Assembly: GCA_016931715.1 (NCBI GenBank)
Contig: JAFGEF010000015.1
Coordinates: 1-64,000 of the forward strand
Origin: Sedimentisphaerales bacterium
Lineage (GTDB): Bacteria > Planctomycetota > Phycisphaerae > Sedimentisphaerales > Anaerobacaceae
DNA: 64,000 nt
Direction: 5' to 3'
Below, piece after piece: positions 144 through 58,341 of this stretch; positions within the stretch are counted from its first letter, which is position 1; each line of letters starts with the position of its first letter. A program made the translations under genes and the position numbers. The notes under the pieces were generated by a model, which made no database searches, had not been told where the DNA came from, and saw only the letters and a program-made list of their open reading frames with translations.

Positions 144-190
144 GCTCTATTTAGTCTGTCAATAATCGGGAAATAAAAAAATATTACTAA

Positions 191-390
191 AGGATTCTGC
201 AAAATTGAAGTTAGACATACTTTAAGAAAGAAAAAATTGCTTGTGTTTAATTTTTTCTTTCTTAAACAACGAAGTTAAAGTATTCTTTAATAAGAAGTTA
301 CGGCAACGCAGCAGATTGTATGAAGAAAATCTTTTAAACCGATTTTCTTCATACAATATATGTCTAACTTCAATTTTACAGAACTCATAT
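191..390. mobile_element. MITE-like element, longest copy (copy A)
   Basis: This 200-bp element has 25-bp terminal inverted repeats (195-219 and 359-383, one mismatch). They begin TTCTGCAAAATTG and continue GAAGTTAGACATA. Inside are two AT-rich hairpins, at about 220-265 (AAGAAAGAAAAAATT arm) and 316-358 (TATGAAGAAAAT arm). It is bracketed exactly by a 10-bp direct repeat ATATTACTAA at 181-190 and 391-400, which looks like a target-site duplication. There is no coding potential. Related copies occur at eight other places in this window. Confidence 0.75.
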
Positions 391-416
391 ATATTACTAA
401 TTTAGGGAGATGTATC

Positions 417-1370
417 ATGCAAGCATATGACTTTGAGCCAATGTCGATAGGCAGAATTCTGGATGTCACTTTCAAAATCTATAAGGATAATTTCATAAGA
501 TTCATAACTATTGTGGCAATAATTCAGATCCCAATCGGCTTGCTGTCAATAATATCCAGTTCTTTAATACGCAGGGAAGCGCCTGTTCGCCAGGAGAGCT
601 ATTCCGGGCAAATTAATCCCCTTACAGAGCAGAATCCTGAAAGCATCAATACTGAAGCATTTCGGGCAAACCTCGAAAATAACCGTAATAACAGAAGCAA
701 TCCCGCGGTATTTATTGTCGGAGGTATTGGTATGATAATTGTGGGTATCTTAAGCCTGCTGGGCCAGCTTCTTTGCAGCGGAGCATTATCCAAAAGTGTT
801 TCTGAAGTATATTTAGGAAATGAGCTCACTGTCGGCCAGGCATATGGATATGTCTTTCCTAAATTTTTATCTCTGCTCGGTGCAGGCATCCTCGTTGCAC
901 TGATAGTTTACCTTGGATTCATTCTTTTAATTGTTCCCGGAATAATATTTGCTCTCTGGCTGTCGCTGACAACACCTGCCATTATTATCGAAAACCTCAG
1001 GGCAACAAAAGGAATGTCACGCAGTAAAGCTCTGGCTTCAGGTAATCTTGGCAAAATATTTTCTGTCGGTTTTCTGGCTTTATTAATTTCCCTCTTAATA
1101 ACCTTACCTTTTAACTTCATTGGAGGTTTAGTTGGAGGCATTCTGTTTGCTGATAATTTAACGATGATAACTTTTATAACACAGTTGTTTAGCCTGGCAG
1201 GACAGATATTAATTGTTCCTATCGGAGCTATAGCTTATATTTTACTGTATTATGACTTACGAATTCGCAAGGAAGGATTTGACCTTGTAATGCTCGCAAA
1301 CAGCATTGGTTCCGGGCAAGGTGTACCTAATGTCGGCCAAACATTACCGTCAAACAACTCTGAAATGTAG
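417..1370 (+). CDS. Glycerophosphoryl diester phosphodiesterase membrane-domain-like protein
   Basis: This is a 317-residue integral membrane protein. The N-terminus (FEPMSIGRILDVTFKIYKDNF) is typical of the GPDPase membrane-domain / YciC-like family: a short amphipathic stretch before the first membrane segment. About six hydrophobic segments follow, with a polar Asn/Gln/Glu-rich loop at about residues 60-105. No catalytic phosphodiesterase domain is attached. I placed the start at the ATG at 417 behind TAGGGAGA; an upstream in-frame ATG at 360 lies inside a mobile-element end and has no ribosome binding site. It is the first gene of a run with DUF4129, DUF4350, MoxR and DUF58 genes, which suggests a role in envelope or membrane-complex assembly. 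The function itself is unknown. Confidence 0.75.
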   Translation: MQAYDFEPMSIGRILDVTFKIYKDNFIRFITIVAIIQIPIGLLSIISSSLIRREAPVRQESYSGQINPLTEQNPESINTEAFRANLENNRNNRSNPAVFIVGGIGMIIVGILSLLGQLLCSGALSKSVSEVYLGNELTVGQAYGYVFPKFLSLLGAGILVALIVYLGFILLIVPGIIFALWLSLTTPAIIIENLRATKGMSRSKALASGNLGKIFSVGFLALLISLLITLPFNFIGGLVGGILFADNLTMITFITQLFSLAGQILIVPIGAIAYILLYYDLRIRKEGFDLVMLANSIGSGQGVPNVGQTLPSNNSEM

Positions 1371-2085
1371 ATTTCTGCTATCAGCAGCTATCGTAATAAT
1401 ATTTTTATCACCTGCAATATTCTTCGCAAACGAATCAGCAGATACAGATAGTGTACAATATAACAGAGCCGATGCTGACACTATAAAAATACTTACCAGG
1501 CAGATTCTTTCGATAAAAGATTTTGCGCCCAGGAAAACTTTTCAGCAATGGTTAATTGAGAAATTAACGAAGTGGGATTTGCCAAAACTCGAATTTAGTC
1601 ACGGCTGGGTCGCGGTTGTCTGCTGGATTATTCTTATCTGGTGCATTCTTACTCTAATAGCAATATTTATTCATTTTATTTATACCATAACTTTATTGAT
1701 TCGACCGGCTGCGGTATCTTCCGATGCCGGAAGAAATATATCATCGAAATCAGTAAAGATTACATCTTTCACTGAGCTGTATAAAATGGCTCAGGAATTT
1801 GCAGGAAATGGCGCATTCCGTGAAGCTGTCAGTACAATATCGGCCGCTCTTCTCTATTGGCTTGATTCCGTGAATATTGTCAGTTTCCATGAAAGTAAAA
1901 CCAACGGAGATTATATCAGGGAATATCCATCAGATTATACAGGCAGGGATGCTTTCAGAAAATTCATATGCATATCCGAGCAAAACATTTACGGCAGCCT
2001 TCGCAGTGATAATCAAACATATAACCAAATGAATTCTTTAATGGAGCATATACAGAACTGTGTCGCCAGACAGACAAAAGAGTGA
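1330..2085 (+). CDS. DUF4129 domain-containing membrane protein
   Basis: This 251-residue protein has an N-terminal hydrophobic segment (signal peptide or anchor), an extracytoplasmic stretch of about 65 residues, a second membrane segment near residue 95, and a cytoplasmic C-terminal DUF4129-like domain of about 100 residues. That domain has the repeated helices FREAVSTISAALLYWLD and FRKFICISEQNIYG. The ATG at 1330 follows CAAGGTG at good spacing and overlaps the upstream gene by 41 bases; a TTG at 1306 is the alternative. DUF4129 proteins are recurrent partners of MoxR-DUF58 systems, as here. The biochemical role is not established. Confidence 0.75.
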   Translation: MSAKHYRQTTLKCRFLLSAAIVIIFLSPAIFFANESADTDSVQYNRADADTIKILTRQILSIKDFAPRKTFQQWLIEKLTKWDLPKLEFSHGWVAVVCWIILIWCILTLIAIFIHFIYTITLLIRPAAVSSDAGRNISSKSVKITSFTELYKMAQEFAGNGAFREAVSTISAALLYWLDSVNIVSFHESKTNGDYIREYPSDYTGRDAFRKFICISEQNIYGSLRSDNQTYNQMNSLMEHIQNCVARQTKE

Positions 2086-3325
2086 TTATTTTATCTTGGC
2101 TATTCTCGGAGCAATTACAGCAGGAATACTGTTCATATTTATTCTTTTAGATTTGATCGGGAAAGACAAGCCCGGTATGCCCGGTATTCGAGCATCAGAT
2201 TCTACGAATGTGGACGGCGTATTGGTTTGCTATACGCTTTTCGAGAAACTCGGAATGCATGTGGAACGTTCTCAAAAAGCTCTTCTTGGCAAGGTACTTT
2301 CCAAAATAGATGTTCTGTTCCTGTTAAATCCTGTTATACCGATGTATGAAGGCGAGATTAGAGATATACGGGAATGGTTAACCGGAGGAGGTGTATTAAT
2401 TTGTACAAATATACCAAAAGGACTGCACCCCTTTTTGCAGCAATTTACTCAATCCTCCAATTCGTCCATGAATCCGGCAAGAAAAATAAATTCGCCTATA
2501 AATACAGCCGCTGATATACCTGCTCAGCATGCAAATCTTCCTTTGGCTCGTGACATATCGAAAATTTACTTCGAGACATCTAATGTTATCAAAGCTGATA
2601 TTCCCGACTTTACTCAGCATAAAAGTTCGATAGAAACTCTTCTATCTGATAACATCGGCTCTCGTATTATCAAATTCAGTTTAGGCTCCGGCTGCATTAT
2701 TCTTTTATCTGACAGTTCTTTTCTGGCGAATGGACATATAGATAAAAATGATAATGCCGTACTTGCGGTCAATCTTGTTTCTTATGCTATTTCGCTGGCT
2801 GAAAACAATAACGTTGTATTTGATGAATATCATTTTAATACATCAAACAGTCAAACCGGATTTGGTACATTAAGTAAAATGCTGTTCAGTTCTGCCGCCG
2901 GATGGTCGGTTTTAAGCCTGATTATTGCCGGCGTATTTTACATTATTTATAAAGGCAGGAGATTTGGTTACAGACGAAGTCTTGAAAATAAACATAGACG
3001 CTCGAAACTCGAGTATATTTACAGCGTCGGCTCCGCATACCATTCTGCCGGAGCTAACCGGCTTACCCTGAAAATTATTTATGACTGGCTCAGGCGCAAA
3101 ACTTCTGATATTACAGGATTGGCTCCAAATGCGTCAAATTCAGCAATTGCCAATGAACTATCTCGCCGAAGCGGACATGAGCCTGAAAAATATAAACTAA
3201 TATTCGACAAATGCGACAAAATGATGACACAAAAAAAAATATCGGAACGACAGATGCAATCTGCATTAAAAGAACTCGCATCAATTGAAATGGAGATATT
3301 CAATGAACATCGAAAACATAAATGA
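2060..3325 (+). CDS. DUF4350 domain-containing membrane protein
   Basis: This 421-residue protein starts at GTG 2060, overlapping the previous gene by 26 bases. It has an N-terminal membrane segment, then a DUF4350-type domain (class I glutamine-amidotransferase-like fold) in about residues 40-260. The domain shows the hallmark IREWLTGGGVLICTN and ends with IKFSLGSGCIILLSD. A second membrane segment lies near residue 285, followed by a basic cytoplasmic tail of about 120 residues. DUF4350 proteins accompany MoxR, DUF58 and DUF4129 proteins in many bacteria. Two larger proteins at 28.8-34.0 kb carry similar domains. Confidence 0.78.
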   Translation: MSPDRQKSDYFILAILGAITAGILFIFILLDLIGKDKPGMPGIRASDSTNVDGVLVCYTLFEKLGMHVERSQKALLGKVLSKIDVLFLLNPVIPMYEGEIRDIREWLTGGGVLICTNIPKGLHPFLQQFTQSSNSSMNPARKINSPINTAADIPAQHANLPLARDISKIYFETSNVIKADIPDFTQHKSSIETLLSDNIGSRIIKFSLGSGCIILLSDSSFLANGHIDKNDNAVLAVNLVSYAISLAENNNVVFDEYHFNTSNSQTGFGTLSKMLFSSAAGWSVLSLIIAGVFYIIYKGRRFGYRRSLENKHRRSKLEYIYSVGSAYHSAGANRLTLKIIYDWLRRKTSDITGLAPNASNSAIANELSRRSGHEPEKYKLIFDKCDKMMTQKKISERQMQSALKELASIEMEIFNEHRKHK

Positions 3326-4259: not shown

Positions 4260-4262
4260 TTT

Positions 4263-5573
4263 ATGCTCCCTTCTTTACGATTGATAATATTGATTGCGGC
4301 AGCCGCCCCGATATTTTTAGCAGGTTCTTTATATGATTTTTTTACCGGTATCGGGGTAATTTATGTAATCCTTCTAATACTTTATACTGCTTTAGATGCA
4401 CTTATTCTGCCCGGGAAGCATAAATTTCTTATTAAGCGAATTATCCCCGCTCGAATATCTCTCGGTTTCCCGACACTCGTCAAATTCGAAGTTCAGAACA
4501 ACTGCCGCAGACGAATGGAAGTCATTCTTGCTGAAGATATACCTCCGGCAATGAATGTCACGCCAGACAGGTGTAAAATATTACTGGGCGCCGGCGAAAG
4601 AAAAACTGTTGAATACCGCCTCGATGCACATAAGCGGGGAAAATACGAGCTTTCATACATATATGCAAGAATTTTGCCTTACATGGGCTTATTACACCGC
4701 CAGTTCAAAATCCGGATACCTGACAATATCAGCGTCTTTCCGAATCTAATGAACCTGAAAAGATACGAGCTTCTCATAAGGAGAGGCATGGACTCCGATC
4801 AGGGCATACTAAAGCTCAGGCAAATCGGGCCGGGATCTGAATTCGAGAGTTTGCGACACTACGTCAGCGGCGATGAAATATCGCGAATTGAATGGAAGGC
4901 AACCGCCCGAAAAGGAAAGCTTATAGTAAAAAACTATGAACCGGAAAAACAGCAGAATATTATTGTTGCAATCGATACAGGACGTGCAACTGCAGGAGAG
5001 TTCGGCGGATTGAGCAGAGTCGATTATTTGGTAAACGCAACCTTAATGCTGGCTTACGCAGCCCTGCGTCAGAATGACTGGTTCAGTATGATTGCATTCA
5101 GTGACAAAATTGACAGCTATTTGCCTCCGGTGAACGGCATAAAAAACATCGATCGTGTCGCAAAGTCACTTTTTGAATTACAGCCGAACCTTGTCGAGTC
5201 CAATTACGGTGCTGCATGCCGCTTTCTGGGTTTGAAAAACCGCAAACGAAGTTTGCTGTGCATGATGACTGATGTAGTTGATCGTCACGCAAGCAATGAA
5301 ATCATATCATATATGTCACGATTTTCACGTTATCATCTTCCTCTTGCGATAACTTTATCAAACCCGGAAATCCGCCAGGCTGCTGAAATTCCGCTGACGG
5401 AATGTAATGACCCATACAGTAAAGCTGCAGCTCTGGATACCATCGCCGCCAGAGAAGAAGCTCTTTTATTAATGAAACACAAAGGAATATCTGTTTTGGA
5501 CGTCCCCCCAAATCGCCTGACACCGGAACTGATAAATCGCTATACACTGATTAAATCAACACATCAGCTTTAA
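4263..5573 (+). CDS. DUF58 domain-containing protein (MoxR partner)
   Basis: This 436-residue protein has two N-terminal membrane segments (about residues 5-50), then a beta-rich extracytoplasmic or membrane-proximal region. The DUF58 core follows at about residues 195-245 with GSEFESLRHYVSGDEISRI and IEWKATARKGKLIVKNYEPE. The C-terminal half is a degenerate von Willebrand factor A-like fold; IIVAIDTGRA replaces the metal-site DxSxS, so metal binding is doubtful. It starts three bases after the MoxR stop and ends one base before the convergent SpoIIM-like gene. Confidence 0.88.
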   Translation: MLPSLRLIILIAAAAPIFLAGSLYDFFTGIGVIYVILLILYTALDALILPGKHKFLIKRIIPARISLGFPTLVKFEVQNNCRRRMEVILAEDIPPAMNVTPDRCKILLGAGERKTVEYRLDAHKRGKYELSYIYARILPYMGLLHRQFKIRIPDNISVFPNLMNLKRYELLIRRGMDSDQGILKLRQIGPGSEFESLRHYVSGDEISRIEWKATARKGKLIVKNYEPEKQQNIIVAIDTGRATAGEFGGLSRVDYLVNATLMLAYAALRQNDWFSMIAFSDKIDSYLPPVNGIKNIDRVAKSLFELQPNLVESNYGAACRFLGLKNRKRSLLCMMTDVVDRHASNEIISYMSRFSRYHLPLAITLSNPEIRQAAEIPLTECNDPYSKAAALDTIAAREEALLLMKHKGISVLDVPPNRLTPELINRYTLIKSTHQL

Positions 5574-5574
5574 T

Positions 5575-7713: not shown

Positions 7714-7742
7714 TTGTTATTGGATAGTTTGCTACATAATAT
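7714..7742 (+). promoter_or_regulatory. Candidate promoter of the hyd operon
   Basis: TTGTTA (7714-7719) is separated by 17 bases from TAATAT (7737-7742). The -10 box lies inside the left direct repeat of the 21-bp element. Insertion of the element duplicated this box, so a second TAATAT occurs at 7765-7770. Confidence 0.4.
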
Positions 7743-7763
7743 AAGAGTTTTGCAAAAGTTCAG
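7743..7763. repeat. Minimal 21-bp copy of the dispersed element
   Basis: The unit runs AAGAG, then the palindrome TTTTGCAAAA, then GTTCAG. It is bracketed exactly by the 7-bp direct repeat ATAATAT (7736-7742 and 7764-7770). It equals the two ends of the long copy at 35105-35291 joined at the shared palindrome with everything between them deleted. A nearly identical unit lies at 14800-14821. Confidence 0.6.
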
Positions 7764-7789
7764 ATAATATGCAGCAGTAAGGATAATTT

Positions 7790-14781: not shown

Positions 14782-14799
14782 AAATCATTCACTTATTAT

Positions 14800-14821
14800 C
14801 TGAATTTTTGCAAAACTCTTT
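14800..14821. repeat. Minimal 22-bp copy of the dispersed element inside the che operon
   Basis: On the minus strand the unit reads AAAGAG-TTTTGCAAAA-ATTCAG, nearly identical to the unit at 7743-7763. It is bracketed exactly by the 7-bp direct repeat TTATTAT (14793-14799 and 14822-14828). It lies in the short gap between the cheA stop and the cheR start and leaves both intact. Confidence 0.6.
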
Positions 14822-14829
14822 TTATTATT

Positions 14830-24481: not shown

Positions 24482-27400
24482 ATGAAAAAGTCAAGTACTC
24501 AGGCGGCATTCCCCATTCTCCTTATTTGTGTATTTATAATAGTCTTTGTGCCGTCAGCATCAGGTCTTTTGAGCAATCTTGGCAGCTTAATAATAACAGA
24601 GTTGACCAGTACCAGGCTAAGCAGTCTTCACGGAGTAAGTTCCGGTGTTTATATAACACCAGAGCCTGCAGACAGTGAATGCGACTGGAGGTACGGGTAT
24701 CCTCACAAGATGCACTGGCCTCAATTGCCTGATTTCGGTACAGCAGGAATGGATGTCGATGCCTCGCAGGCAATTTTAGCAGATGATTTCAAATGCACAG
24801 CAACAGGCCCAATTAATGATATACACTTCTGGGCATCTTTTGAAAACGATATTTTACCAGCAAATGGAGCAAACAGCCTGTCATTTGAGATAAAGATTTA
24901 TTCGGATAAGCCTGCAAGCGCCAATTCATGGAGCAGCCCTGAAAGTATTCTTTGGAGCAGAATATTTAATCCGGGTGATTATACTGTTCGCCAGATAAGG
25001 AATCGGCTTTCGGACTGGTTCGATCCGCTGATGCTTGTTAATTCAGCCGACAATCACAGGCAGGCATTTCAATATAATTTCTGTGTAAAAAACAATCCGT
25101 TCATTCAGGAGGAAGGCACAATTTACTGGCTCAGCATCAGAGAAATAAGGTCTGAAAATGCGATTCACAAGCTGGGCTGGAAAACAACGACAAAAAAGCT
25201 CAGATGGAATGATAATGCCGTGTATTCTGTGCCGGGAGCGGCTGCATGGCTTCCTATGTACTACCCGAAAGCGCACGAATACGAGGGACAGTCGATAAAT
25301 CTGGCATTTTCAATTACTGACGGGCTCCAGGGAGACCGAATGCATGACCTTGGTGATGCCCCGGACAGTTCGAATACGTTTCCGGGTGTAACGATGACGG
25401 CTTATGATGCAAATACAACAGCACATTATCCAACAGTATTCTGGACAAACTTTCCGCCATTTGGCCCAATTCACTGGCAGCCCGAGAAATGGTTTTATCT
25501 TGGAAAAGATGTAAGCTTTGAAAGCGGCGCGGACTCCGGATATGATGAGGATACCAATAATAACCTCTATCCGCCGGGAAATATGGCTAATCGGGACGGT
25601 TCTGATGACGGCATAAAACTGCCCCTGGTACTGCCGCACTGCCAGCAGGCAAAAATACCATTTACAGTTACGTTTGTCAGCCCGACTGGTAGTACTCCGA
25701 TTTACTTAAATGTCTGGTGCGATTGGAACCGGGATGGCGATTGGGATGATACTATGACATGCCCGGACGGCAAAAATGCACCGGAATGGGCTGTGCAAAA
25801 TGCATCAATTATTAATAATTTCGCCGGTACAGTTGACCTGGAAACAAATTCTTTCATGTGCTGGCATCCTCAAACCGGCGATGAACCAGACCCGATGTGG
25901 CTGCGAATTACACTTTCGGAAAAAACATGGAGCACGTCTTATCCATCTTTAATCGGCTCGAGCGGCTGCGGCCCCGATGAGGGTTACGAATATGGCGAGA
26001 CTGAGGATTACCTGATTTATGCAAAAGAAGATCCAAACTCGACTCAATATGACTGGGCAGACGCCCCAGACAGCTATTCATATCCAGCGTATCCGACAAT
26101 TTCAACTAACAATGGCGCTTATCATGTAATTACAGGACCATGGCTGGGAGATGCAAACGATAAACCAGATGCAGAGCTGAACGGTCAGCCCGATGCAAAC
26201 GCTTTGGGCGATGATTTGGATACCGAGCCGTTGTTCTCATTAGGCTCAACAATTGATGACGAGAACGGCGTGACAATACCACCTTTGATTCCGGGGTATC
26301 CTGCTGATATAACGCTCGAAGTGGGCGGCGGCGGCGGTGTTGTTCAGGCATGGATAGACTATAACAGCGATATGGGCTGGCAGCCTGAAGAAGAGGTTTA
26401 TAATAATTTCCTGTCTCCGGGCTTGCATGTTATTTCATTTATTGTGCCTGACGATGCAATAACCGGACAGTCTTTCGCCAGGTTCCGAATCAGCAGAGAC
26501 GGTAATCTTGCACCGGATGGTCCGGCGAGGGATGGAGAAGTTGAAGATTACGAAGTACTTATCGACTCGCTTTCACCTTATACAAAATGGCTTCAATTAC
26601 CTGATGTTACCCCGCACGGAATAGATATACAGGTAGATTCCAACGATGGGATGCGCATAATTGCGGACGATTTCGAATGTACAAATACTGATAAAATTAC
26701 TGATGTTCATTTCTGGGGTTCATGGAAAAATGATAAAAAATACGATATAGAAAGAATCCATCTCAGCATCTATAATGACGTCCCGGCAGACAGTTCAAAT
26801 CCGTATTCACAACCTGCCGCCAAAGTTCTGTGGCAGAAAGATTTCTACCCGGGCGAGTTTACTGAGAAACTTTATCATGAAGTTCGCAAGCCTGGCGAGT
26901 GGTGGTGGGACCCCGTGAAAAACAATCTTGTCGAAGGAGCGGACAAGCAAATTTGGAAAATCGATATCGACATCAATCCAAACGAGGCATTCACGCAGCA
27001 GGGTACTGCTGATAATCCGCGAATATACTGGCTTGCAATACGCGTTGATACTAATGACGGCGAATTCGGCTGGAAAACCAGAAGATGGCCGGACCATTAT
27101 ATGGATGATGCTGTCTGGGATGTCGGCTCTGAGCTGCCGCGATTGTGGAAAGAACTTCGATACCCAAAGAAACATCCGTATCATGATATAGAAAGAAATT
27201 CCGTTGATATGGCATTCCAACTGACTTATACACAGGATCAGGGAATACCTACCATGAGGCCTGTAAGCCTGACTCAATGCCCGGCGATTCAGACAAAATG
27301 TCCGGCTGCCGCTACAGCCTGTCCGCCTGTTAATACTCGCTGTCCGGCTGCAGCTACGAAATGTCCGCCTGTACAGACACAGTGTATGGCAATCACGGTT

Positions 27401-34897: not shown

Positions 34898-35288
34898 AGT
34901 GTCTCCAATAAGATATAATATAAGGATTCTGCAAAATTGAAGTTAGACATACTTTGCAGAACTTATTTATAATAATCGCCCTTTTACAAATTTTCCTCAC
35001 TTTTTTCCAGAATAATCTTAAATTTTTTCATATTTCCCCGCGATGTGCTAAAATATTTTCGGTAGAAGTGAACTTTGACTTATTTCGTATCACCTATATT
35101 ACAGCAAGAGTTTTGCAAAAATGAGAAAAGGCATACTTTGGAAAGAAAAAATTATAAAATAAATTTTTTCTTTCTAAGCATAAAATATCACTTATTAAAG
35201 AGTTATGCTGATTGTAATTTATTATTTTAAGAAAATCGTTAGACGATTTTCTTAAATAATATATGCCTTTTCTCATTTTTGCAAAAGT
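34898..35288. other. Intergenic region carrying two element copies side by side
   Basis: This 391-bp AT-rich gap lies between the PAC2 start and the symporter stop. It contains the 47-bp copy at 34921-34967 and most of the 187-bp copy at 35105-35291. The rest holds no evident gene or clear promoter. Confidence 0.5.
34921..34967. mobile_element. Dispersed element, 47-bp internally deleted copy
   Basis: The left end (AAGGATTCTGCAAAATTG, then AAGTTAGACATA) is followed almost at once by the right end CTTTGCAGAACTTAT. The unit is bracketed by the 7-bp direct repeat TATAATA (34914-34920 and 34968-34974). It is upstream of the PAC2 gene. Confidence 0.6.
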
Positions 35289-35291
35289 TCA
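35105..35291. mobile_element. MITE-like element, 187-bp copy that ends the symporter gene (copy B)
   Basis: The terminal inverted repeats differ from copy A in sequence but match in layout: TTTTGCAAAAATGAGAAAAG at the left and its complement at the right. The two internal hairpins correspond to those of copy A (AAAGAAAAAATT arm and AAGAAAATCG arm). It is bracketed by the 7-bp direct repeat ATTACAG (35098-35104 and 35292-35298). The last three bases (35289-35291) are the stop codon of the symporter. Confidence 0.75.
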
Positions 35292-36518
35292 ATTACAGTG
35301 ATTTCCCCTGATAAAGCGGCTGACAATCATCGCCGCCGCTGTATCACCTGTTGAATTTATCATTGTTGCAGGCGGATCAACGAGAGTGCCAAGCATAGAT
35401 ATAATGGGCAGAGCTTCAGGACCAAAGCCATAGAGCGAGACAATCAGCGCTTCCCCGAGAAAGCCCCCTCCTGTTATTCCGCTCATAACAACGCCGCATA
35501 ACAGGGAGACACCGATAGCCGCTGTATATGTATCTAATCCTGTAAAGTCCTTTTGGAAAATTGTGAACAGAATGGCGATTTTAAGAACCGCCGCCAGGCA
35601 TGTGCCATCCATATGAATCGTTGCACCTATCGGAAGCACAATCTCGCGGACATCTTCGGGTACACCTATTCGCCTGGCTGCTTCAAGATTTGCAGGCAGA
35701 GCCGCCAGGCTGCTTCCAGTACCAAAAGCAGTCAGCGCCGCAGGGGGAATATTCACCCAGAATAGCTTTACTCCTTTTATGCCGCCTGCAGCAAACGTAT
35801 ATAGTGAAAAGCTGAAAACAAAATATAATATCGCGACAGGATAATACAAACTGACAACACGCGCATATGTCCCTATAAGTTCAGGACCAAATACGCCGAC
35901 TAAATATGCGAAATAAGCGCCAAGACCAATCGGAGCATAAAGCATAATCAGCTTTATCAGCCTGCCCATAACTTCGGAGCCTGAAACAAGAAATTCCCGA
36001 AATGGACGTCCTTTTTCACCGGCGGCCTGAGAGGCAAAGCCGATGAGAATAGAAAAAATAATCAGTGCTAAAATATTCCTTCGAGAAAGCAGGTTCGGAA
36101 AATCACCCACTGTAAGGGTATCGACAATTCGTTGAGAAATATTACCTGTATCCTGAGACGCTGCTTCTTCAAGCTGCAAAGTAATATTTTTAGCTGGATT
36201 AAAAATCTTAACGCAAACGAGCATTAAGCTTGATGAAATTATTCCCGTAATAACAAACACAACGAGCATCGAACCTGCTATCCTGCCGAGACGTTTGATA
36301 TTGGCGCTTCGTGCTACGGCTGATGACAATGAAAAAAATATCAATGGCACAACTGCAGTAAAAAGCAGATTCAAAAATATGTCACCCAGCGGCTTAAAGA
36401 CACCGGCTTTAGACTTGAACACAAAACCAATTAAAGCACCCACACCAACTGCGCAGATAAGAATCAAGGTAAATCGCCATCGTTTGAGAAAGGTCTGTTC
36501 ACTATTGTTTTGTGTCAT
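35289..36518 (-). CDS. Dicarboxylate/amino acid:cation symporter (DAACS family)
   Basis: This 409-residue transporter has about eight membrane helices and two re-entrant loops. Family motifs include FTAVVPLIFFSLSSAV, TAFGTGSSLAALPANLEA (serine-rich hairpin, HP1), PIGATIHMDGTCLAAV (NMDGT-like motif as HMDGT), and a C-terminal HP2 with LGTLVDPPATMINSTGD. It takes up dicarboxylates or acidic amino acids with Na+ or H+. Its last codon and stop come from a mobile-element insertion; without it the protein would end IGDTK after HCN. The effect on function should be small. Confidence 0.93.
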   Translation of the reverse strand: MTQNNSEQTFLKRWRFTLILICAVGVGALIGFVFKSKAGVFKPLGDIFLNLLFTAVVPLIFFSLSSAVARSANIKRLGRIAGSMLVVFVITGIISSSLMLVCVKIFNPAKNITLQLEEAASQDTGNISQRIVDTLTVGDFPNLLSRRNILALIIFSILIGFASQAAGEKGRPFREFLVSGSEVMGRLIKLIMLYAPIGLGAYFAYLVGVFGPELIGTYARVVSLYYPVAILYFVFSFSLYTFAAGGIKGVKLFWVNIPPAALTAFGTGSSLAALPANLEAARRIGVPEDVREIVLPIGATIHMDGTCLAAVLKIAILFTIFQKDFTGLDTYTAAIGVSLLCGVVMSGITGGGFLGEALIVSLYGFGPEALPIISMLGTLVDPPATMINSTGDTAAAMIVSRFIRGNHCN

Positions 36519-39670: not shown

Positions 39671-39704
39671 GGATCTGCAAATGAAAATTATCATTGCACT
39701 TTAG
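39671..39704. repeat. Divergent short copy of the dispersed element
   Basis: The 34-bp unit GGATCTGCAAATG...CATTGCACTTTAG has a recognisable TCTGCAAA core with an inverted partner. It is bracketed exactly by the 7-bp direct repeat TTATAAG (39664-39670 and 39705-39711). The right repeat contains the stop codon of the next gene, so duplication left that stop unchanged. Confidence 0.45.
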
Positions 39705-48333: not shown

Positions 48334-48362
48334 AGGTTAGGCTTCTGCAAAATTGAAGAACT
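48334..48362. repeat. Short copy of the dispersed element
   Basis: GGCTTCTGCAAAATTGAAG followed by AACT matches the two ends of the family joined. A 6-bp direct repeat AAAAAG flanks it (48328-48333 and 48363-48368). It is directly upstream of the lipoprotein gene on the minus strand. Confidence 0.45.
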
Positions 48363-48608
48363 AAAAAGCTTCTAATTAAAATATCGGCATATTTTGACCA
48401 AGAAATTATTGTCGTTTTATGAAATATATTAAAAATTGTTGTCAAATTAGCACAACTGGTGGGTTTAATAGGTCAGTTTGAGTAAAATAATATTGACAGT
48501 ATCCGGCTATTTTAATAGTATAAATATCGTCCTGAGGCAGAAAAGATAGATATTGTTTTATTGAAAAGAAGATATGAGGAATTTCAAGGTGTCCGGTACA
48601 TTTAGAGA

Positions 48609-48727
48609 TTCTAACAAAATGAATTTTTCCTTTGTGGCATGGCCATCCCATTCGACTAACGCTCAGGGCAGGCTCTGACCATGCTTCTTGGGCAAGATGC
48701 CCATGACACGATTCTTTTTGTTAGAAC
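48609..48727. repeat. Inverted-repeat unit (about 119 bp)
   Basis: TTCTAACAAAATGAAT (48609-48624) matches the complement of ATTCTTTTTGTTAGAA (48711-48726) with one mismatch. The GC-richer interior contains GGCATGGCCATCCC and CTTGGGCAAGATGCCC. It may be a different miniature element; no flanking direct repeat is clear. Confidence 0.4.
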
Positions 48728-48965
48728 TTCTTAATTCTTCCAAGCAGCATTTTATAATGCCAATTCAGTGATTATTGAGGGATGATTTTACACGCTTTAA
48801 CTTTTAAATATAGAGAGCGAAAATAACCAAAAAAGTATTGAAAATTAAAAAATAATAAGATATTATAGAAAAAGTGTTACTTTAAGTCCCTGTTCAATAT
48901 TAATAGAAAAAGGTTCTAAAAATAAAATCTTTATTATTTTGCTTATATTAAATAATAAAACGTAG

Positions 48966-49324: not shown

Positions 49325-51664
49325 ATGTTTAAGAAGCTTTTTTTTGTTATTTCATTTATATCTTTTCTGGTATTGACAAACACAGCCAGCGCTGCCGATC
49401 CCAATCTCGTTGGCTGGTGGAAGCTCGATGAAGGTTTTGGCAATACTGCTTATGATTCCAGTATTTACGGCAACAACGGCACAATAACCGGAGGACCTGA
49501 CTGGATTGACGGTCGAATTAAAGGAGCGCTTCAGTTTAGCGGCCAGGCACAATATATAGACTGCCAGGCAGGAGAAAGCCTGAATATTACAAAAGAGATT
49601 ACGCTTTCACTGTGGGTGGACACAAACGATGCGGGGGATAACCTGAGACACTCATATATGATGAAGGGGGAAATGACTTATGGACTAAAACATACCACTT
49701 CAAATAACATTCAATTTTACATATATTACGACGGCTATCATGAGGTTCTGACACCTGTAACCGAAGCTTTTAATGGTCAGTGGCATCATTTGGCCGGAAC
49801 TTTTGACGGACAAGTGATGAAGTTATATATCGATGGTGTGTTAATGGGCAGCACACAATATAAAGGGGGTATAAACAGGGATAATAATTATGCTCTTAGT
49901 TTTGGGAGAAACAACCAGGGAGACGGGCTTAATCAATGGTATTACGAAGGCTTTCTTGATGATATTCGGGTTTATAATCGTGCGTTATCACAACAGGAGA
50001 TTCAGGATATGCTTAGCCCGGAGTATGCCTCCATGCCGAGTCCTGAAGACGGCGCCCAATATGAAGAACCTGATGTGGTTTTGAAATGGGTGCCCGGCTC
50101 CAGGGCTAATACACATGACGTTTACCTCGGAACGGTTTTTAATGATGTCAACCAGGCAAGCAGAACTGATCAGCGCAATGTTCTTGTAAGTCAAAACACC
50201 GATGCTAATTCTTTTGAACCCGCCGGACTGCTTGAATTAGACCAGACTTATTACTGGCGGATTGATGAAGTTGATGCTCCGCCGAGCAACACAAGATATA
50301 AAGGTCCGGTCTGGAGCTTCACAGTTCCTTTTGCCTTTCCTATTAAGCAAATCACTGCCGCAGCTTCCAGCAGCGATGCGAATAAAGGTCCTGAAAATAC
50401 AGTAAATGGTTCCGGATTAGATAAAACCGGTTTGCTGCATGATAAAATAAGTAAAGACTGTATGTGGCTGAGTAGCCGCACCGGAGAACAACCGACATGG
50501 ATATTATTTGAATTTAACAAGGTTTACAAACTTCATGAGATGTGGGTATGGAACTCTAATGATAGTTTTGAGCTTTCGGTTGGTTTGGGAATTAAAAATG
50601 CAGTAATTGAATATTCAGTCGATGGCATCAATTACACAACACTGGGAACTACTCATGAATTTGCTCAAGCGCCTGCTGTGTCGAATTATGCGCATAATAC
50701 GACTATAGATTTCGATGATGTATTGGCAAAATACGTCAGAATTACCGCCAACAGCAATTGGAAGGGTCTCCTGAAACAGTATGGTCTCAGTGAGGTTCGC
50801 TTTTTCTATGTCCCTGTCAGTGCAAGAATGCCTAATCCGACAGACGGCTTAACAGACGTCGCCCTGGATGTAACACTCACATGGAAAGCCGGAAGAGAAG
50901 CGGCTGAGCATAAAGTATATATCAGCAAAGACGAGCAGGCCGTAATTAACGGAAATGCACCTGTTAGTACATACAGCATGACAAGCTATGGCCCGTTAGC
51001 GCTTGATCTTAACAGCATATATTACTGGCGCGTAGATGAGGTTAATAATGCTGAAACACCTTCTGTATGGCAGGGAGATATTTGGAGCTTTAAAACTTCC
51101 GAGTATATTGTCGTCGATGGTTTCGAGATCGGTTATGATGATACTGATGCAAATGCAGTATGGGCTACATGGATTGACGGATATGGGAATGAATTAGTCA
51201 ACGGCGCCCTGATTGGTTACGCATTTCCGGGCCCATATCTATCAACAACCAATCACAGCGGCGGACATTCTGCACCCTTGAATTATAATAATACAATAGC
51301 CAGTTATTCAGAAATTACAGCTCAGTCTGATGAGCTTCCGATAGGTACGACAGACTGGACGACAGGCAACCCGGATACACTCGTGATATGGTTTATGGGC
51401 GATGCTAATAATGCTTCTACAGACAGGCTGTATATGAAGCTGAACAACAAGAAACTTGTTTACAATGGTCCTGCGGCTGATATATCCAGCACAACATGGA
51501 TACCCTGGGAGATAGATATTCCATCGCTGGGAGTGAACCTTAGTAATATCAGCAGTATTACAATAGGTTTGGAACGGAGCGGCTCGAATGGAGGCTCTGG
51601 TATATTGTATATAGATGATATTCAGCTTTATGTTCGTTTGGATGAAGAGGCGATTCTTGAGTAA
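49325..51664 (+). CDS. Secreted LamG/discoidin multidomain protein
   Basis: This 779-residue protein has a signal peptide (about 1-24, NTASAADP) and a LamG/concanavalin-like domain (about 25-220: LVGWWKLDEGFGNTAYDSS ... WYYEGFLDDIRVYNRAL). An FN3-like module follows (PSPEDGAQYEE...YYWRIDEVDAP), then a discoidin/F5-8C-like domain (about 335-485), a second FN3-like module (YYWRVDEVNNA), and a C-terminal beta domain starting VVDGFEIGYDDTDANAVW. Such proteins bind polysaccharides or surfaces. No catalytic motif, dockerin or PEP-CTERM is seen. The second of two adjacent ATGs is six bases from AAGGAGG. The next gene is a paralogue for its last 550 residues. Confidence 0.85.
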   Translation: MFKKLFFVISFISFLVLTNTASAADPNLVGWWKLDEGFGNTAYDSSIYGNNGTITGGPDWIDGRIKGALQFSGQAQYIDCQAGESLNITKEITLSLWVDTNDAGDNLRHSYMMKGEMTYGLKHTTSNNIQFYIYYDGYHEVLTPVTEAFNGQWHHLAGTFDGQVMKLYIDGVLMGSTQYKGGINRDNNYALSFGRNNQGDGLNQWYYEGFLDDIRVYNRALSQQEIQDMLSPEYASMPSPEDGAQYEEPDVVLKWVPGSRANTHDVYLGTVFNDVNQASRTDQRNVLVSQNTDANSFEPAGLLELDQTYYWRIDEVDAPPSNTRYKGPVWSFTVPFAFPIKQITAAASSSDANKGPENTVNGSGLDKTGLLHDKISKDCMWLSSRTGEQPTWILFEFNKVYKLHEMWVWNSNDSFELSVGLGIKNAVIEYSVDGINYTTLGTTHEFAQAPAVSNYAHNTTIDFDDVLAKYVRITANSNWKGLLKQYGLSEVRFFYVPVSARMPNPTDGLTDVALDVTLTWKAGREAAEHKVYISKDEQAVINGNAPVSTYSMTSYGPLALDLNSIYYWRVDEVNNAETPSVWQGDIWSFKTSEYIVVDGFEIGYDDTDANAVWATWIDGYGNELVNGALIGYAFPGPYLSTTNHSGGHSAPLNYNNTIASYSEITAQSDELPIGTTDWTTGNPDTLVIWFMGDANNASTDRLYMKLNNKKLVYNGPAADISSTTWIPWEIDIPSLGVNLSNISSITIGLERSGSNGGSGILYIDDIQLYVRLDEEAILE

Positions 51665-51875: not shown

Positions 51876-54158
51876 ATGTGTAGAAATTTATTTATTTCAA
51901 TCTTTTGTGCTGTTTTAATCATTGGTGCAGGCAGTGCCTGGGCAAGCTCGGAACCTTTTAGCGTATTAGCACTTCTGGAACAGCATGTGACTAATGACAC
52001 GCAGTGGGGTCCTGACCAGACGGAAGACCAGATTGGAGTACATGTTCGAGATACAGGTACCAATAGGCGCCGGGTGGGACTCTACAGTTTTGATATCTCA
52101 TCAGTTAAAGTTGAAGGTGCAGAATTTGCAAATTTATGCTTTAGTAATTTAGGCGCTGGCGTCGGTCCAGTAAATGTCTATGGAGTCATCGAGGAGCTTG
52201 ACAATCTTCCACCAAGATTAGAGCTTACATGGAATAAGGCTCCCGGTGTCAAGAATGATGGTTCTTTAGCTGTCGGTGCTCCTGTGGTGTTAGACTATAA
52301 CGATCTCACACCCTTACTGTGCCGTTTTACCGCGCCCGGCAATCAGATTAGGGCATCAACCGAACCGAATCAGGCATTGACCGATTTCGTCAATAGTGAT
52401 ACCGATGGGATTATCACCCTGCTGTTTGCACCAAATACAGGCAGCTCGGCGATTTTGCGGACAGTCAGAAGCACTGAGGGCGGAATCATTGGCGGCACTT
52501 ACCTTCAAGGTGAAATAGTAACGCTACCGGAATTGGCTTCCAAGCCGCTGCCTGCTTTAAAAGCAACAGATGTGCCTCGCGATTTGGTTCTTAGCTGGTC
52601 TCCAGGTATATTTGCCAACACGCACAATTTGTACTTCGGCACAGATATAAACGATGTCAAAGGAGCCACTATAGCAGCACCGTTAAGCGCTACTGTAATC
52701 GAGGGACTGGATGCCAACAGTTATGATATCGGCAGATTGGAATTCGGAACGACTTATTACTGGCGCGTTGACGAGGTCAGCGCTCCTCCGGTTTCAACGG
52801 TATATGATGGTGTAGTTTGGAGCTTTACCGTAGAATCTTTGTCGTATCCTATAGCTGGTGATATGATAACAACTACTGCTTCATCATCATCTGAAGGTCT
52901 GGGACCTGAGAATACCGTTAACGAGTCAGGACTGGATGTGAACGGTTTGCTGCATGGCAATGAAGCTGTCAATACTATGTGGCTAAGCAGTGAAACTGAA
53001 ACAGGACCGGCATCTATCGAATATGATTTAGGTGTTGTTCAGAGGCTTCACGAGCTTTGGGTATGGAACTATAATGATTCTCTGGAGTCGCTGATTGGTT
53101 TCGGATTCAAAGATGTTACAATCCAATACTCAGTCAATGGCAGCGACTATACAACGCTGGGAACCACTCATGAATTTACTCAGGCATTTGGTGAACCTAA
53201 TTATGCACCTAATACTATTGTGAATCTTGATGGTATCGAAGCCAGGTATATTAAGCTTACGGCTAATACAAACTGGGGAGGTATTCTGAACCAGTATGGT
53301 CTTAGTGAGGTACGTTTCTTCTATATACCAATGCGTGCATGGAAACCAAACCCGAAAGACGATGCAGCAGATGTAGCTCTGGATGCAATGCTAAGCTGGA
53401 TGGCAGGAAGAGAGGTCTCTGAGCACAACGTATATATCAGCACTGACGAACAGGCTGTAATTGACGGCAATGCTCCTCTTGTGACAATATCACAGAAAAG
53501 CTATGGCCCATTATCCCTTGATCTTGGAAAAACTTACTACTGGCGAGTCGATGAGGTCAATAATGCCGAACCTACTCCCGTCTGGCAGGGAAATGTCTGG
53601 AACTTCACAACAAAGGATTCTCTGATTGTGGATGACTTCGAGGTCGGCTATGATGATACTGATGCTAATGCAGTATGGGCAACATGGATTGACGGATATG
53701 GGAATGAATCTGTCAACGGCGGTCTGATAGGTAACGTATTTCCAGGACCATATCTTTCTACAATTAACCATAGCGGCGGTCATTCAGTTCCGTTGAGGTA
53801 TGACAATACTATCGCCAGTTATTCAGAGGCAACAGCTCAGGTAGCTGACCTGCCGATTGGTATAACCGACTGGACGACAGGCAATCCGAATACCCTCGTA
53901 ATCTGGTTCAGAGGCGCTGCTGCCAATGCTGCTAATGATCGGCCGTACATGAAACTGAATAATACCAGGCTTGTTTATGGTGGTGCTGCTGCCAATATAT
54001 CCAGTACAACCTGGATAAAATGGGAGATAAATCTTCCGTCTCTTGGTATAAACCTTAGTAATATAAGCTCTATTACAATAGGTGTAGAGAGAATCGACTC
54101 AACCGGAGGCTCAGGTACATTATATCTGGATGATATTCAACTGACATCGCTGGATTAA
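51876..54158 (+). CDS. Secreted DNRLRE/discoidin multidomain protein
   Basis: This 760-residue protein has a signal peptide (about 1-24, GSAWASSEP). The N-terminal domain (about 25-215) resembles DNRLRE/CBM96 carbohydrate-associated modules (RRVGLYSFDISSVKVEGAEF...LTWNKAPGV). It replaces the LamG domain of the neighbour. The rest repeats the neighbour's layout: FN3-like, discoidin-like, FN3-like, then the domain beginning IVDDFEVGYDDTDANAVW. AGGAGGA lies five bases before ATG 51876. The shared C-terminal domain probably has a common anchoring or assembly role; that is inference. Confidence 0.83.
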   Translation: MCRNLFISIFCAVLIIGAGSAWASSEPFSVLALLEQHVTNDTQWGPDQTEDQIGVHVRDTGTNRRRVGLYSFDISSVKVEGAEFANLCFSNLGAGVGPVNVYGVIEELDNLPPRLELTWNKAPGVKNDGSLAVGAPVVLDYNDLTPLLCRFTAPGNQIRASTEPNQALTDFVNSDTDGIITLLFAPNTGSSAILRTVRSTEGGIIGGTYLQGEIVTLPELASKPLPALKATDVPRDLVLSWSPGIFANTHNLYFGTDINDVKGATIAAPLSATVIEGLDANSYDIGRLEFGTTYYWRVDEVSAPPVSTVYDGVVWSFTVESLSYPIAGDMITTTASSSSEGLGPENTVNESGLDVNGLLHGNEAVNTMWLSSETETGPASIEYDLGVVQRLHELWVWNYNDSLESLIGFGFKDVTIQYSVNGSDYTTLGTTHEFTQAFGEPNYAPNTIVNLDGIEARYIKLTANTNWGGILNQYGLSEVRFFYIPMRAWKPNPKDDAADVALDAMLSWMAGREVSEHNVYISTDEQAVIDGNAPLVTISQKSYGPLSLDLGKTYYWRVDEVNNAEPTPVWQGNVWNFTTKDSLIVDDFEVGYDDTDANAVWATWIDGYGNESVNGGLIGNVFPGPYLSTINHSGGHSVPLRYDNTIASYSEATAQVADLPIGITDWTTGNPNTLVIWFRGAAANAANDRPYMKLNNTRLVYGGAAANISSTTWIKWEINLPSLGINLSNISSITIGVERIDSTGGSGTLYLDDIQLTSLD

Positions 54159-55633: not shown

Positions 55634-56094
55634 AGATAGCACTCGGATGTGACCATAGAGCTTTTGAAATCAAAGAGCAAATCAAAGTATTAATAAACGA
55701 ATTAGGCCATGAATTTATTGATTTCGGCGCTTTTAATAACGAGCCGGTAGATTATCCTGATACTGCATATTTAGCGGCTAAAGCAGTTTCAACAAAGCAG
55801 GCCGACAGAGCAATCCTTGCCTGTGCAACCGGTATTGGTATGAGTATGGCTGCAAATAAAGTTCCGGGAATAAGAGCTGCACTCTGTCATGACGAATTAA
55901 GCGCACAACTATCGAGAGGACACAACGATGCTAATGTGCTCTGCCTGTCGGGAGATCAAACCGGAGAATCACTGCTCAGAAAAATAGTCGAGATGTGGCT
56001 GAAAACCGAATTCACCGGCGGAAGGCACCAGAGAAGAGTCAATAAAATTCAAGCTATCGAACAGGGAAAAGATCCAAGAGAACTCAACCATTAA
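55630..56094 (+). CDS. rpiB: Ribose-5-phosphate isomerase B
   Basis: This 154-residue RpiB/LacAB-family isomerase has GCDHRAFEIK (D8, H9), DYPDTAYLAA, and catalytic C65 in ILACATGIGMS; RAALCHD and SRGHNDANVL follow. It interconverts ribose-5-P and ribulose-5-P. The ATGA overlap with the Sua5-phosphatase gene implies coupled translation. This pairing of phosphatase and rpiB is common in several phyla. Confidence 0.95.
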   Translation: MKIALGCDHRAFEIKEQIKVLINELGHEFIDFGAFNNEPVDYPDTAYLAAKAVSTKQADRAILACATGIGMSMAANKVPGIRAALCHDELSAQLSRGHNDANVLCLSGDQTGESLLRKIVEMWLKTEFTGGRHQRRVNKIQAIEQGKDPRELNH

Positions 56095-56118
56095 TCATAT
56101 ATGGCGTAATACAGGGCG

Positions 56119-56134
56119 GGCAGGGAGGCCTGCC
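56119..56134. terminator. Short GC-rich hairpin between rpiB and accA
   Basis: GGCAGG pairs with CCTGCC across GAGG, 25 bases after the rpiB stop. An A-run follows on the plus strand, so a T-run follows the hairpin only on the other side. It may be a weak bidirectional terminator of the convergent genes. Confidence 0.35.
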
Positions 56135-56172
56135 TTGTTAAAAAAAAATTCCTCCCTTAAATATCAATTCTT

Positions 56173-56252
56173 AAGGATTCTGCAAAATTGAAGTTAGACA
56201 TATATTGTATGAAGAAAATCGGTTTAAAAGATTTTCTTTATACTTTGGCGTG
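56173..56252. mobile_element. Dispersed element, 80-bp copy that ends accA (copy E)
   Basis: It starts AAGGATTCTGCAAAATTG, continues through GAAGTTAGACATA, and then has the second hairpin of copy A in reverse orientation (TATGAAGAAAATCGG arm). The right end is degenerate. It is bracketed by the 7-bp direct repeat AATTCTT (56166-56172 and 56253-56259). The accA stop codon (56238-56240) and its last four codons lie inside it. Confidence 0.65.
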
Positions 56253-57335
56253 AATTCTTTTGGATTTTGATTTGATGCTCTGCAATGCAATCTTTATTCT
56301 GTCTCTGCCGGCCTGAGTTTTCGAGCGCAGCGTTTCAGGAGAAACAGAGCCTATCGAACGCAATTTCTGATACCTGTCCTCTAACAGATTTTCAATTTTC
56401 ACGCGTTTAAGCTCTCTGAACGTCTTTACGATGTATTTTTCTACATTATAAATGGCATCATGCATATTTCGATGCGCCCCCCCCAGCGGCTCCTGAATAA
56501 TCTCGTCAATAAGCCTGAGTTTATGCAAATCTTTGCTGGTCAGTTTGAGCGCTTCGGCAGCTAATGGAGCCTGCGAGCCGTCACGCCATAAAATACCGGC
56601 ACAGCCTTCAGGCGATATTACGGAATAATACGCATACTCAAGCATAGCAAGTCTGTCACCAACACCTATACCAAGCGCGCCGCCTGAGCCGCCCTCTCCG
56701 ATAACTATGCAGATAATCGGGACTTTCAAACGGGACATCTCCTGCATGTTCACGGCGATAGCCTGCGCCTGGCCGCGTTCTTCGGCGCCTACACCGGGAT
56801 ATGCGCCCGGCGTATCAATTAAAGTTACAATCGGGATATTGAACTTTTCTGCGAATTTCATTTTGGCGAGCGCCTTGCGGTAACCTTCGGGATTGGGACA
56901 TCCGAAATTGCACTCTATTTTTTGCTTAATATTTTTTCCCTTATTCTGCGCAATTACTAAAACTCTTTCCCTGCCTATATTTCCGAAGCCGGTAATAATC
57001 GCTTTATCATCGCCGAAGCATCTGTCTCCGTGAAGCTCGCGAAAATCTTTTACCATAAGCTCAAGATAATCGCCGGCAAGAGGTCTTTTCGGATGGCGAG
57101 CCACCTGAACCGTCTGCCATGCAGAAAGCCTGGAATAAACATGCCTCAGCTCATCAACCTGCTGTTTCTGGAGCCGCCGTATTTCAGGAGAATAGTCTAT
57201 GCCTTTAACTGAACTGAGTTTCCGAAGTTCAATCATCTGGCTGTCAAGCTCAGCAACCTTATCCTCGAAATCGAGGTGATCACTGCCGCTTATACTATTA
57301 TTATTGTCAGGCATAAATTTTATCTTCTTCGGCAT
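56238..57335 (-). CDS. accA: Acetyl-CoA carboxylase carboxyltransferase subunit alpha
   Basis: This 365-residue protein has an N-terminal helical region (about 18-75), then the crotonase-like carboxyltransferase core: RPLAGDYLELMVKDFRELHG, TLIDTPGAYPGVGAEERGQ, IGEGGSGGALGIGVGDR, and YSVISPEGCAGILWRD. It transfers CO2 from carboxybiotin to acetyl-CoA with AccD, which is not in the window. The last residues (HAKV) are encoded by a mobile-element insertion; without it the frame would end RIDI and stop at 56157. The C-terminal tail of about 40 residues is basic and poorly conserved in the family. Confidence 0.93.
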   Translation of the reverse strand: MPKKIKFMPDNNNSISGSDHLDFEDKVAELDSQMIELRKLSSVKGIDYSPEIRRLQKQQVDELRHVYSRLSAWQTVQVARHPKRPLAGDYLELMVKDFRELHGDRCFGDDKAIITGFGNIGRERVLVIAQNKGKNIKQKIECNFGCPNPEGYRKALAKMKFAEKFNIPIVTLIDTPGAYPGVGAEERGQAQAIAVNMQEMSRLKVPIICIVIGEGGSGGALGIGVGDRLAMLEYAYYSVISPEGCAGILWRDGSQAPLAAEALKLTSKDLHKLRLIDEIIQEPLGGAHRNMHDAIYNVEKYIVKTFRELKRVKIENLLEDRYQKLRSIGSVSPETLRSKTQAGRDRIKIALQSIKSKSKRIHAKV

Positions 57336-57656
57336 ACGCGCAAAACTACCTTCACTTGCTATTTCAACACATACCTTCTTAAACGTGAGATATTACCATT
57401 TTCATTGCGATAATAAAAGAAAAAAATTGCTTTTCAGAAGGCCGGAGAGCATACATATATTTGATTCAGCGTAATTGACATTTTCATATCTTCTTACGTA
57501 TAAATGAGTTATGCAACATAACGTCTTGAATATGGTAATTGCAATTTTTGATGCTCAGCTTCGCATTTCCTCACAATCCTATTGAAAAAACAGGCTGGAA
57601 ATTTCATTTGGGCTTGAATAATACCAGAACGATAATTTCTTTCGACAATACGAATG
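57336..57656. other. Intergenic region with an orphan promoter
   Basis: This 321-bp gap lies between the accA start and the ferritin-like gene's stop. It contains TTGACA (57475-57480), an 18-base spacer and TATAAA (57499-57504) facing plus, toward the 3' end of the ferritin-like gene. A 24-codon frame starts at 57510 and a 61-codon frame from TTG at 57539; neither has a clear ribosome binding site. The promoter could make a short antisense RNA. Confidence 0.35.
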
Positions 57657-58124
57657 TTATTGCCGGTCTCGCGGATTCTTTTGAAGGATATTATATTCCG
57701 TCTCGAAACGGAGCTTGTGTTTGACTTCCTCCTGCGCTAATGCCATCAATAATTCGCGGGACTGCTCATCATGCACACTGCCTATAAGATTGATATATGT
57801 CTTAAAAGCCGCATCTTCCTTTTCTATTCCCAGCATAAGAACATCCATGTAATCCATATCCAGATCCGCAGGGTCATCGGTAATAATATATTCGCTTGCA
57901 GGTCTTGGCGGCTCAAGCTCAGTAGATACTGTCCTGCCTGTCTTGATAATCTCCAGTTCGAGCTTTGCTTTGTGCTCTAACTCCTCAGCGGCCAAATCCT
58001 CGAATGCCTTACGAACACGGTCATTTCCAACTCGACCTGCCAATGTCATATAAAAATTATATGCCTCATTCTCACGAAATATAGCAAATTCAAGAATTTC
58101 CTGATCAGACTCGACCTTGCCCAT
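57657..58124 (-). CDS. Ferritin-like/rubrerythrin-family protein
   Basis: This 155-residue four-helix protein has two copies of the diiron pattern: E-x-x-x-Y in FRENEAYNFYMTLA and EELEHKAKLE; GIEKEDAAFKTYINL and QEEVKHKLRFE. The ExxH motifs (EELEH, EEVKH) are intact. There is no C-terminal rubredoxin domain. It probably binds two irons and acts in peroxide reduction or iron handling in an anaerobe. The ATG at 58124 is preferred over 58148 because AAGGAAAA lies just upstream. Confidence 0.88.
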   Translation of the reverse strand: MGKVESDQEILEFAIFRENEAYNFYMTLAGRVGNDRVRKAFEDLAAEELEHKAKLELEIIKTGRTVSTELEPPRPASEYIITDDPADLDMDYMDVLMLGIEKEDAAFKTYINLIGSVHDEQSRELLMALAQEEVKHKLRFETEYNILQKNPRDRQ

Positions 58125-58195
58125 AGCTTTTCCTTTCATTTCCGCCAACTTCTATTAACTGTCAATCAACAAACTGTACCTCCCAAAATTCATAA

Positions 58196-58276
58196 CAAGA
58201 AAGGACTCTGCAAAATTGAAGTTAGACATAATTATAAGAAAGAAAATATTTCTTGTTTTCAATTTTGCAGAACTTG
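58196..58276. mobile_element. Dispersed element, 81-bp copy (copy C)
   Basis: The left end reads CAAGAAAGGACTCTGCAAAA and the right end TTTTGCAGAACTTG, with one AAGAAAGAAAATATTTCTT hairpin between them. It is bracketed by the 7-bp direct repeat TTCATAA (58189-58195 and 58277-58283). It lies between the kinase stop and the ferritin-like start. Confidence 0.7.
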
Positions 58277-58341
58277 TTCATAATATAATTGTAATGATTA
58301 ATATCAGATTTGCAATCCTGATTTGTTTTTATTCTGCGTTT

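Follow-up and report, generated by a model that had tools for sequence, protein, structure and literature searches.

We analysed a window of 64,000 nucleotides (positions 1 to 64,000 of contig JAFGEF010000015.1, forward strand) from the genome of a Sedimentisphaerales bacterium, assembly GCA_016931715.1, hereafter G000. The short repeats found in this window very probably (probability about 0.9) belong to a new miniature, gene-less transposable family of Sedimentisphaerales-type Planctomycetota that resembles miniature inverted-repeat transposable elements (MITEs) and is moved in trans by a putative enzyme. A non-autonomous transposable family had been proposed from the letters of the window, and the wider data agree with this proposal. 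Copies occur genome-wide, the target-site duplications (TSDs) around them are far above chance, and the corresponding sites in a relative are empty at three loci, so we describe the family as non-autonomous and target-duplicating.

Full-length copies are ~190 bp long and carry no gene. They consist, in order, of tip A, the core TTYTGCAAAA, the remainder of a terminal inverted repeat (TIR; ...TTGAAGTTAGACATA) of 25-29 bp, hairpin 1, a spacer, hairpin 2, the other TIR and tip B. The tips are five bases each, tip A being AAGGA, AAGGC or AAGAG and tip B CTCAT or GTTCA, and the partly palindromic core lies inside each tip. The two related end types are referred to by the start of their core as TTCTGC-type and TTTTGC-type. 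Hairpin 1 is A/T-rich, the spacer after it varies, and the core-to-core span was 159-226 bp in 107 copies, with clusters at 167 and 189. Some copies contain additional structures. Two G000 copies of 223-226 bp (L106, L117) have another palindromic repeat inside, beginning GTCATTGCGAG. Among the CSMAG_2034 copies, L244 and L274 have the loop side of hairpin 2 swapped for a GC-rich hairpin (TCCGCCAAAGGCGGA), and at L297 (~4930-5100; DAOWID010000404.1) an unrelated second MITE-like element with inverted ends TGTAACCGTTCACAGGGT and TATTAT on both flanks is nested inside a family copy.

To size the family, the core TTCTGCAAAATTG was searched in the 4.55 Mb of G000 (173 contigs), where it had 96 exact matches compared to 0 for a reversed-pattern control. 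A looser pattern that included the tips (up to 3 mismatches) revealed 301 ends in G000 compared to 22 in the control. With the copy at 191-390 as query, at least 40 full-length or near-full-length copies at 88-98% identity were recovered in G000, a lower bound because 40 candidates were scored. The genome holds about 100-150 copies, mostly of ~190 bp with two hairpins, and ~40 of 20 bp. Matches were detected in 8 of the 61 genomes searched, namely G000, one of two same-genus relatives (two matches, both weak) and 6 of 34 other family members; the order's other families, represented by 24 genomes, gave no match. Four genomes from four other genera of the same family (G009, G011, G015 and G028) have full-length copies at roughly 70-76% identity. 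A scan of 84,980 species genomes, one per species, gave at least 88 matches, and all named ones were Planctomycetota metagenome-assembled genome (MAG) records; among the matches listed, most were Sedimentisphaerales or Phycisphaerae records. The viral contigs searched gave no match to the family, and Rfam contained no family matching the element, the single match being a tRNA at the window start. The class of MITE-like elements is already known. Literature searches on MITEs in Planctomycetes or Sedimentisphaerales gave nothing on the present family, and the publications covered described neither the sequence family nor the conserved double hairpin, a subfamily-dependent duplication length or abundant TSD-flanked units of 20 bp.

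Of 72 full-length copies, 60% were bracketed by exact direct repeats 7 bp or longer, compared to 1.4% when the right flanks were shuffled among copies, and repeats of at least 9 bp flanked 40% of the same copies compared to 0.13% in shuffles. With the register fixed at five tip bases per side, TTCTGC-type copies had flush repeats in 29 of 87 cases where 0.2 were expected, with lengths of 8 bp (5 copies), 9 bp (5), 10 bp (10), 11 bp (6) and 12, 13 and 14 bp (1 each), the mode being 10. In TTTTGC-type copies the repeats were flush one base further out and were 6 or 7 bp long in 12 of 20 (0.1 expected), and two copies had 9 bp. The TTTTGC-type and 20-bp copies together have repeats of 6-9 bp, mostly 7-8, and the range over the whole family is 6-15 bp. 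Duplication length varies within an end type and also differs between the two related types. The consistent 7-bp duplication of the original prediction is only partly right, and as a fixed length for the family it is ruled out. It appeared constant because TTTTGC-type and short copies dominate the window. Chance matching of 7-bp repeats, in AT-rich intergenic DNA around a common short motif, is a rival explanation. The flanks are indeed AT-rich, and the single cases at 39671 and 48334 are unconvincing. However, shuffled flanks yielded repeats of at least 7 bp in 1.4-1.8% of cases compared to 51-60% observed, which refutes chance for the family as a whole and leaves this explanation with practically no weight.

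Within the window, nine copies had been listed, and the direct repeats around them are present as quoted. Seven of the nine hold up as family members (those at 191-390, 7743, 14800, 34921, 35105, 56173 and 58196), but the one at 39671 lacks the core and the one at 48334 lacks proper tips. The features are listed below; the target repeats were placed by reading the sequence, and the first of them also by a TSD scan.

181-190: left target repeat ATATTACTAA, its last A overlapping tip AAGGA.
190-388, plus strand: full-length TTCTGC-type element with tip A AAGGA, TIR TTCTGCAAAATTGAAGTTAGACATA, hairpins 1 and 2, TIR and tip B CTCAT; many near-identical copies lie within G000.
391-400: right target repeat ATATTACTAA.
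7736-7742 and 7764-7770: left and right target repeats ATAATAT.
7743-7763, plus strand: minimal element AAGAG-TTTTGCAAAA-GTTCA(G), one of ~41 such G000 copies with up to 1 mismatch.
14793-14799 and 14822-14828: left and right target repeats TTATTAT.
14800-14821, minus strand: minimal element, on the reverse strand AAGAG-TTTTGCAAAA-ATTCAG, missing at the aligned orthologous site of a same-genus relative (G002).
34914-34920 and 34968-34974: left and right target repeats TATAATA.
34921-34967, plus strand: TTCTGC-type copy with an internal deletion, 35 bp from core to core; its deletion junction recurs at G000:C93:~17105.
35098-35104 and 35292-35298: left and right target repeats ATTACAG.
35105-35291, plus strand: TTTTGC-type element at full length, with two internal hairpins; no other full-length copy of this type was seen in G000.
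39671-39704: claimed copy, not supported, without the TTYTGCAAAA core.
48334-48362: claimed copy, doubtful; core present, proper tips absent, flanking AAAAAG of low complexity.
56166-56172: left repeat AATTCTT.
56173-56252, plus strand: truncated copy with tip A, one TIR and hairpin 2, its right end not recognisable; a minus-strand open reading frame (ORF) at 56238-57335 terminates within it.
58189-58195 and 58277-58283: left and right repeats TTCATAA.
58196-58276, plus strand: internally deleted TTCTGC-type copy with both TIR cores kept, 67 bp core to core.

Comparison with the same-genus relative G002 revealed empty sites at three loci. At the site corresponding to 34921-34967, G002 reads GTAATTTATAATAATAGCCC, with a single TATAATA and no element. 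At the 14800-14821 site, between flanking genes of ~77% identity, the intergenic DNA runs on without the 22-bp element and the second repeat. At a third site, G000:C82:5212, G002 lacks the 198-bp element together with one repeat; the leftover spacer is of the expected length, although it is too diverged for the single repeat to be read. The G002 alignment was too poor to judge at a second C82 site (12536) and at the 39671 site. The original prediction had named two patterns that would speak against insertion, element-free orthologues keeping both repeats and copies genome-wide without flanking 7-bp duplications; neither was found.

The elements fold in a conserved manner. When divergent copies were folded individually, both internal hairpins formed in 20 of 21. 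The inverted arms covary between genera, with both sides changed in 12 of 23 pairs. From the loop outward, single positions in stem 2 have alternative pairs such as TA/GC and AT/TA/GC/CG, which are compensatory changes, and stem 1 has the alternative pair GC/AT. Covariation of the arms could be explained by shared end recognition, whereas the conserved hairpins need another reason. Copies lie mostly between ORFs in AT-rich flanks. By crude ORF calls, on which all position figures rest, full-length copies in head-to-tail intergenic regions have a median distance of ~28 nt to the downstream start codon compared to ~100 nt for random intergenic points, and minimal copies are not so close, with a median of 56 nt to the start and 8 of 29 between convergent genes. 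Some truncated full-length copies, such as L114 and L118, are now gene 5' leaders. Copies favour the leader directly before a gene and can there become part of a 5' untranslated region. The conserved double hairpin with its compensatory changes, the short distance to start codons and the leader copies are also what fixed, non-mobile regulatory or RNA elements such as terminators, leader structures or operator sites might display. Such elements would not account for flanking repeats that are exact pairs but differ from copy to copy, nor for empty orthologous sites, and no Rfam family matched. As a complete explanation this account is refuted by the TSDs and empty sites, and we consider it very unlikely; the elements may have a secondary regulatory role.

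From the observed repeats, duplications, empty sites and conserved folding, we infer a trans-acting enzyme with a recognition site in the element and a staggered mode of cutting. An enzyme supplied in trans would recognise the tip plus the core, cut AT-rich intergenic DNA in a staggered manner and join the element at the cut. Gap repair would then leave a duplicated target of 8-14 bp (mode 10) with TTCTGC-type ends and of 6-9 bp, usually 7-8, with TTTTGC-type ends. Short forms would result from internal deletion. For the 20-bp form, slippage between the identical TTTTGCAAAA cores at both ends is a plausible route, and transposition after the deletion seems to have occurred for at least one deleted form.

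The short forms were characterised by searching G000 for tip A, core and tip B in succession, which gave 119 matches (up to 2 mismatches) compared to 4 in the control. Among the matches listed, ~30 are ordinary ends of full-length copies, and among those listed at 0-1 mismatch ~41 have the 20-bp sequence AAGAGTTTTGCAAAAGTTCA, exactly or nearly so. Exact flanking repeats of 7-9 bp in register were present at 22 of the 43 minimal copies examined compared to 1.8% in shuffles, and the target of minimal copies resembles GTTAnnAAT. A second short form, the internally deleted TTCTGC-type copy of 35 bp, is identical at window position 34921 and at ~17105 on another G000 contig (C93), within unrelated flanks and with different TSDs (TATAATA and TTATTATTG, respectively); its deletion junction rests on a 3-bp match. 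That one deleted form occurs twice, each time with another TSD, suggests, though not decisively, that shortened forms can still move. The progressive internal deletion that had been proposed to explain the range of sizes is thus a partial account. Deleted forms do exist, but the many 20-bp copies are alike and have TSDs, and the 35-bp form recurs. Together, the two-hairpin element, its 35-bp derivative at two sites and the ~40 copies of 20 bp provide a well-sampled natural experiment on the smallest insertable DNA.

Removing the whole stretch between the two identical cores of a TTTTGC-type element yields the 20-bp form, which can therefore be explained by slippage between direct repeats at the palindrome's base. 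A similar route is known from nearly precise excision of Tn10, where a long inverted repeat with short direct repeats at its base is deleted from one direct repeat to the other and a short TSD-flanked scar remains; in the present family, ~40 sites would share one uniform scar of 20 bp. We lean towards the ~40 uniform 20-bp forms being scars of this kind, left by full-length TTTTGC-type insertions that lost their interior by slippage between the 10-bp TTTTGCAAAA cores and never having moved themselves. This concerns the short forms alone and does not conflict with a MITE identity of the family. It predicts a sequence of exactly tip A, core and tip B, as observed; the TTCTGC-type, whose cores are not identical in direct orientation, gives few such forms (flush TSD in 0 of 4 seen); and partial TTTTGC-type remnants exist (L377). 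On the other hand, G000 showed a single full-length TTTTGC-type copy compared to ~41 minimal ones, and no minimal copy was present in 358 kb sampled from G009 and G028, where ~3 were expected at G000 density and full-length TTTTGC-type copies are many. The recurrent 35-bp form also indicates that deletion does not abolish movement, neither observation being decisive. Alternatively, and with less likelihood, the 20-22 bp unit of tip A, palindromic TTTTGCAAAA and tip B may itself be mobile, moved by the enzyme of the ~190-bp elements with a 7-8 bp duplication. If true, this would be a TSD-forming mobile DNA of exceptionally small size, in which two end-recognition sites overlap on one palindrome. 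In either case, 20-bp copies bearing the mark of insertion raise the question of the minimum size of a mobile DNA unit.

Several observations weigh against the explanation favoured here. About 28% of the full-length copies have no exact repeat of 5 bp or more, and the spread of TSD lengths exceeds what most DDE transposases produce. In the fetched DNA, IS-sized (insertion sequence) pairs of matching ends were not detected beyond candidates at chance level, and the G000 ends listed gave none. IS1-type transposase (PF03400) was detected in 0 of 7 genomes tested, with control genomes matching; DDE_Tnp_1 genes are present in few copies with unrelated ends; rve is absent in G000, and the rve genes of other carriers are without matching ends. 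Y1_Tnp matches were obtained in all five carrier genomes tested (one below the curated cut-off), with several open frames of ~230 aa, but no element ends lie near any Y1 gene found. The host assembly is also fragmented and MAG-like, and its contigs often end inside these elements. Assembly may thus have lost a partner present in several copies, or that partner may have died out in the host lineage. Consistent with the earlier remark that the window contains no transposase, the examined DNA gave none with matching ends, in a search that covered the IS1, DDE_Tnp_1, rve and Y1 families. We use the label MITE-like because no autonomous partner was found, the assembly breaks at repeats and the transposase search covered only these families. 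The ends of an autonomous partner would be expected to begin AAGGM-TTCTGCAAAATTG or AAGAG-TTTTGCAAAATTG.

The Y1_Tnp matches, together with the short, intergenic and hairpin-forming nature of the elements, raise the possibility of REP/REPIN-type palindromes moved by a Y1 (RAYT) transposase. The present family is likewise made of short palindromic intergenic repeats in high copy number. It differs in having TSDs as its main signature and in that no Y1 gene was found beside the elements, and Y1 transposition gives no target duplication, as established for IS200/IS605. A REP/REPIN origin is therefore highly improbable.

Among known systems, prokaryotic MITEs are gene-less, AT-rich, intergenic and hairpin-forming elements of less than 500 bp with TIRs, flanking direct repeats and many copies (PMC10969869). 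All of these traits are common to the present family, whose members are below 500 bp and without coding capacity, are numerous, have TIRs and TSDs and lie in AT-rich intergenic DNA. In contrast to prokaryotic MITEs, no parental insertion sequence was found here, both internal hairpins are conserved across genera, TSD length varies and differs by subfamily, and the uniform 20-bp form is also TSD-flanked. ERIC, RUP and Correia/NEMIS-type repeats are intergenic imperfect palindromes of ~100-200 bp that may sit near genes, with TA duplications or none clearly. The present family is alike in size and in its intergenic palindromes but differs in its 6-15 bp duplications, unrelated sequence and different phylum. 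IS1 and IS231 make variable duplications of ~8-12 bp, and the tip and core of the present family bear a loose resemblance to IS1 and IS6 ends. However, the seven genomes tested gave no IS1 transposase and the DDE_Tnp_1 loci found have unrelated ends. An IS6-derived MITE would be recognised by a fixed 8-bp TSD, whereas the duplications here are variable.

Other features of the window are separate from this family. A tRNA gene on the plus strand at 1-87 is cut off by the contig start (Rfam RF00005; no ARAGORN call). At ~48600-48735, a short stretch belonging to a separate repeat family matches many places in G002 at 81-94% identity. Degenerate tandem or internal repeats of ~67-84% identity occupy 27289-28650 within a long ORF. 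The neighbouring ORFs at 50387-51627 and 52902-54142 are 73% identical over 1.2 kb and represent a tandem gene duplication.

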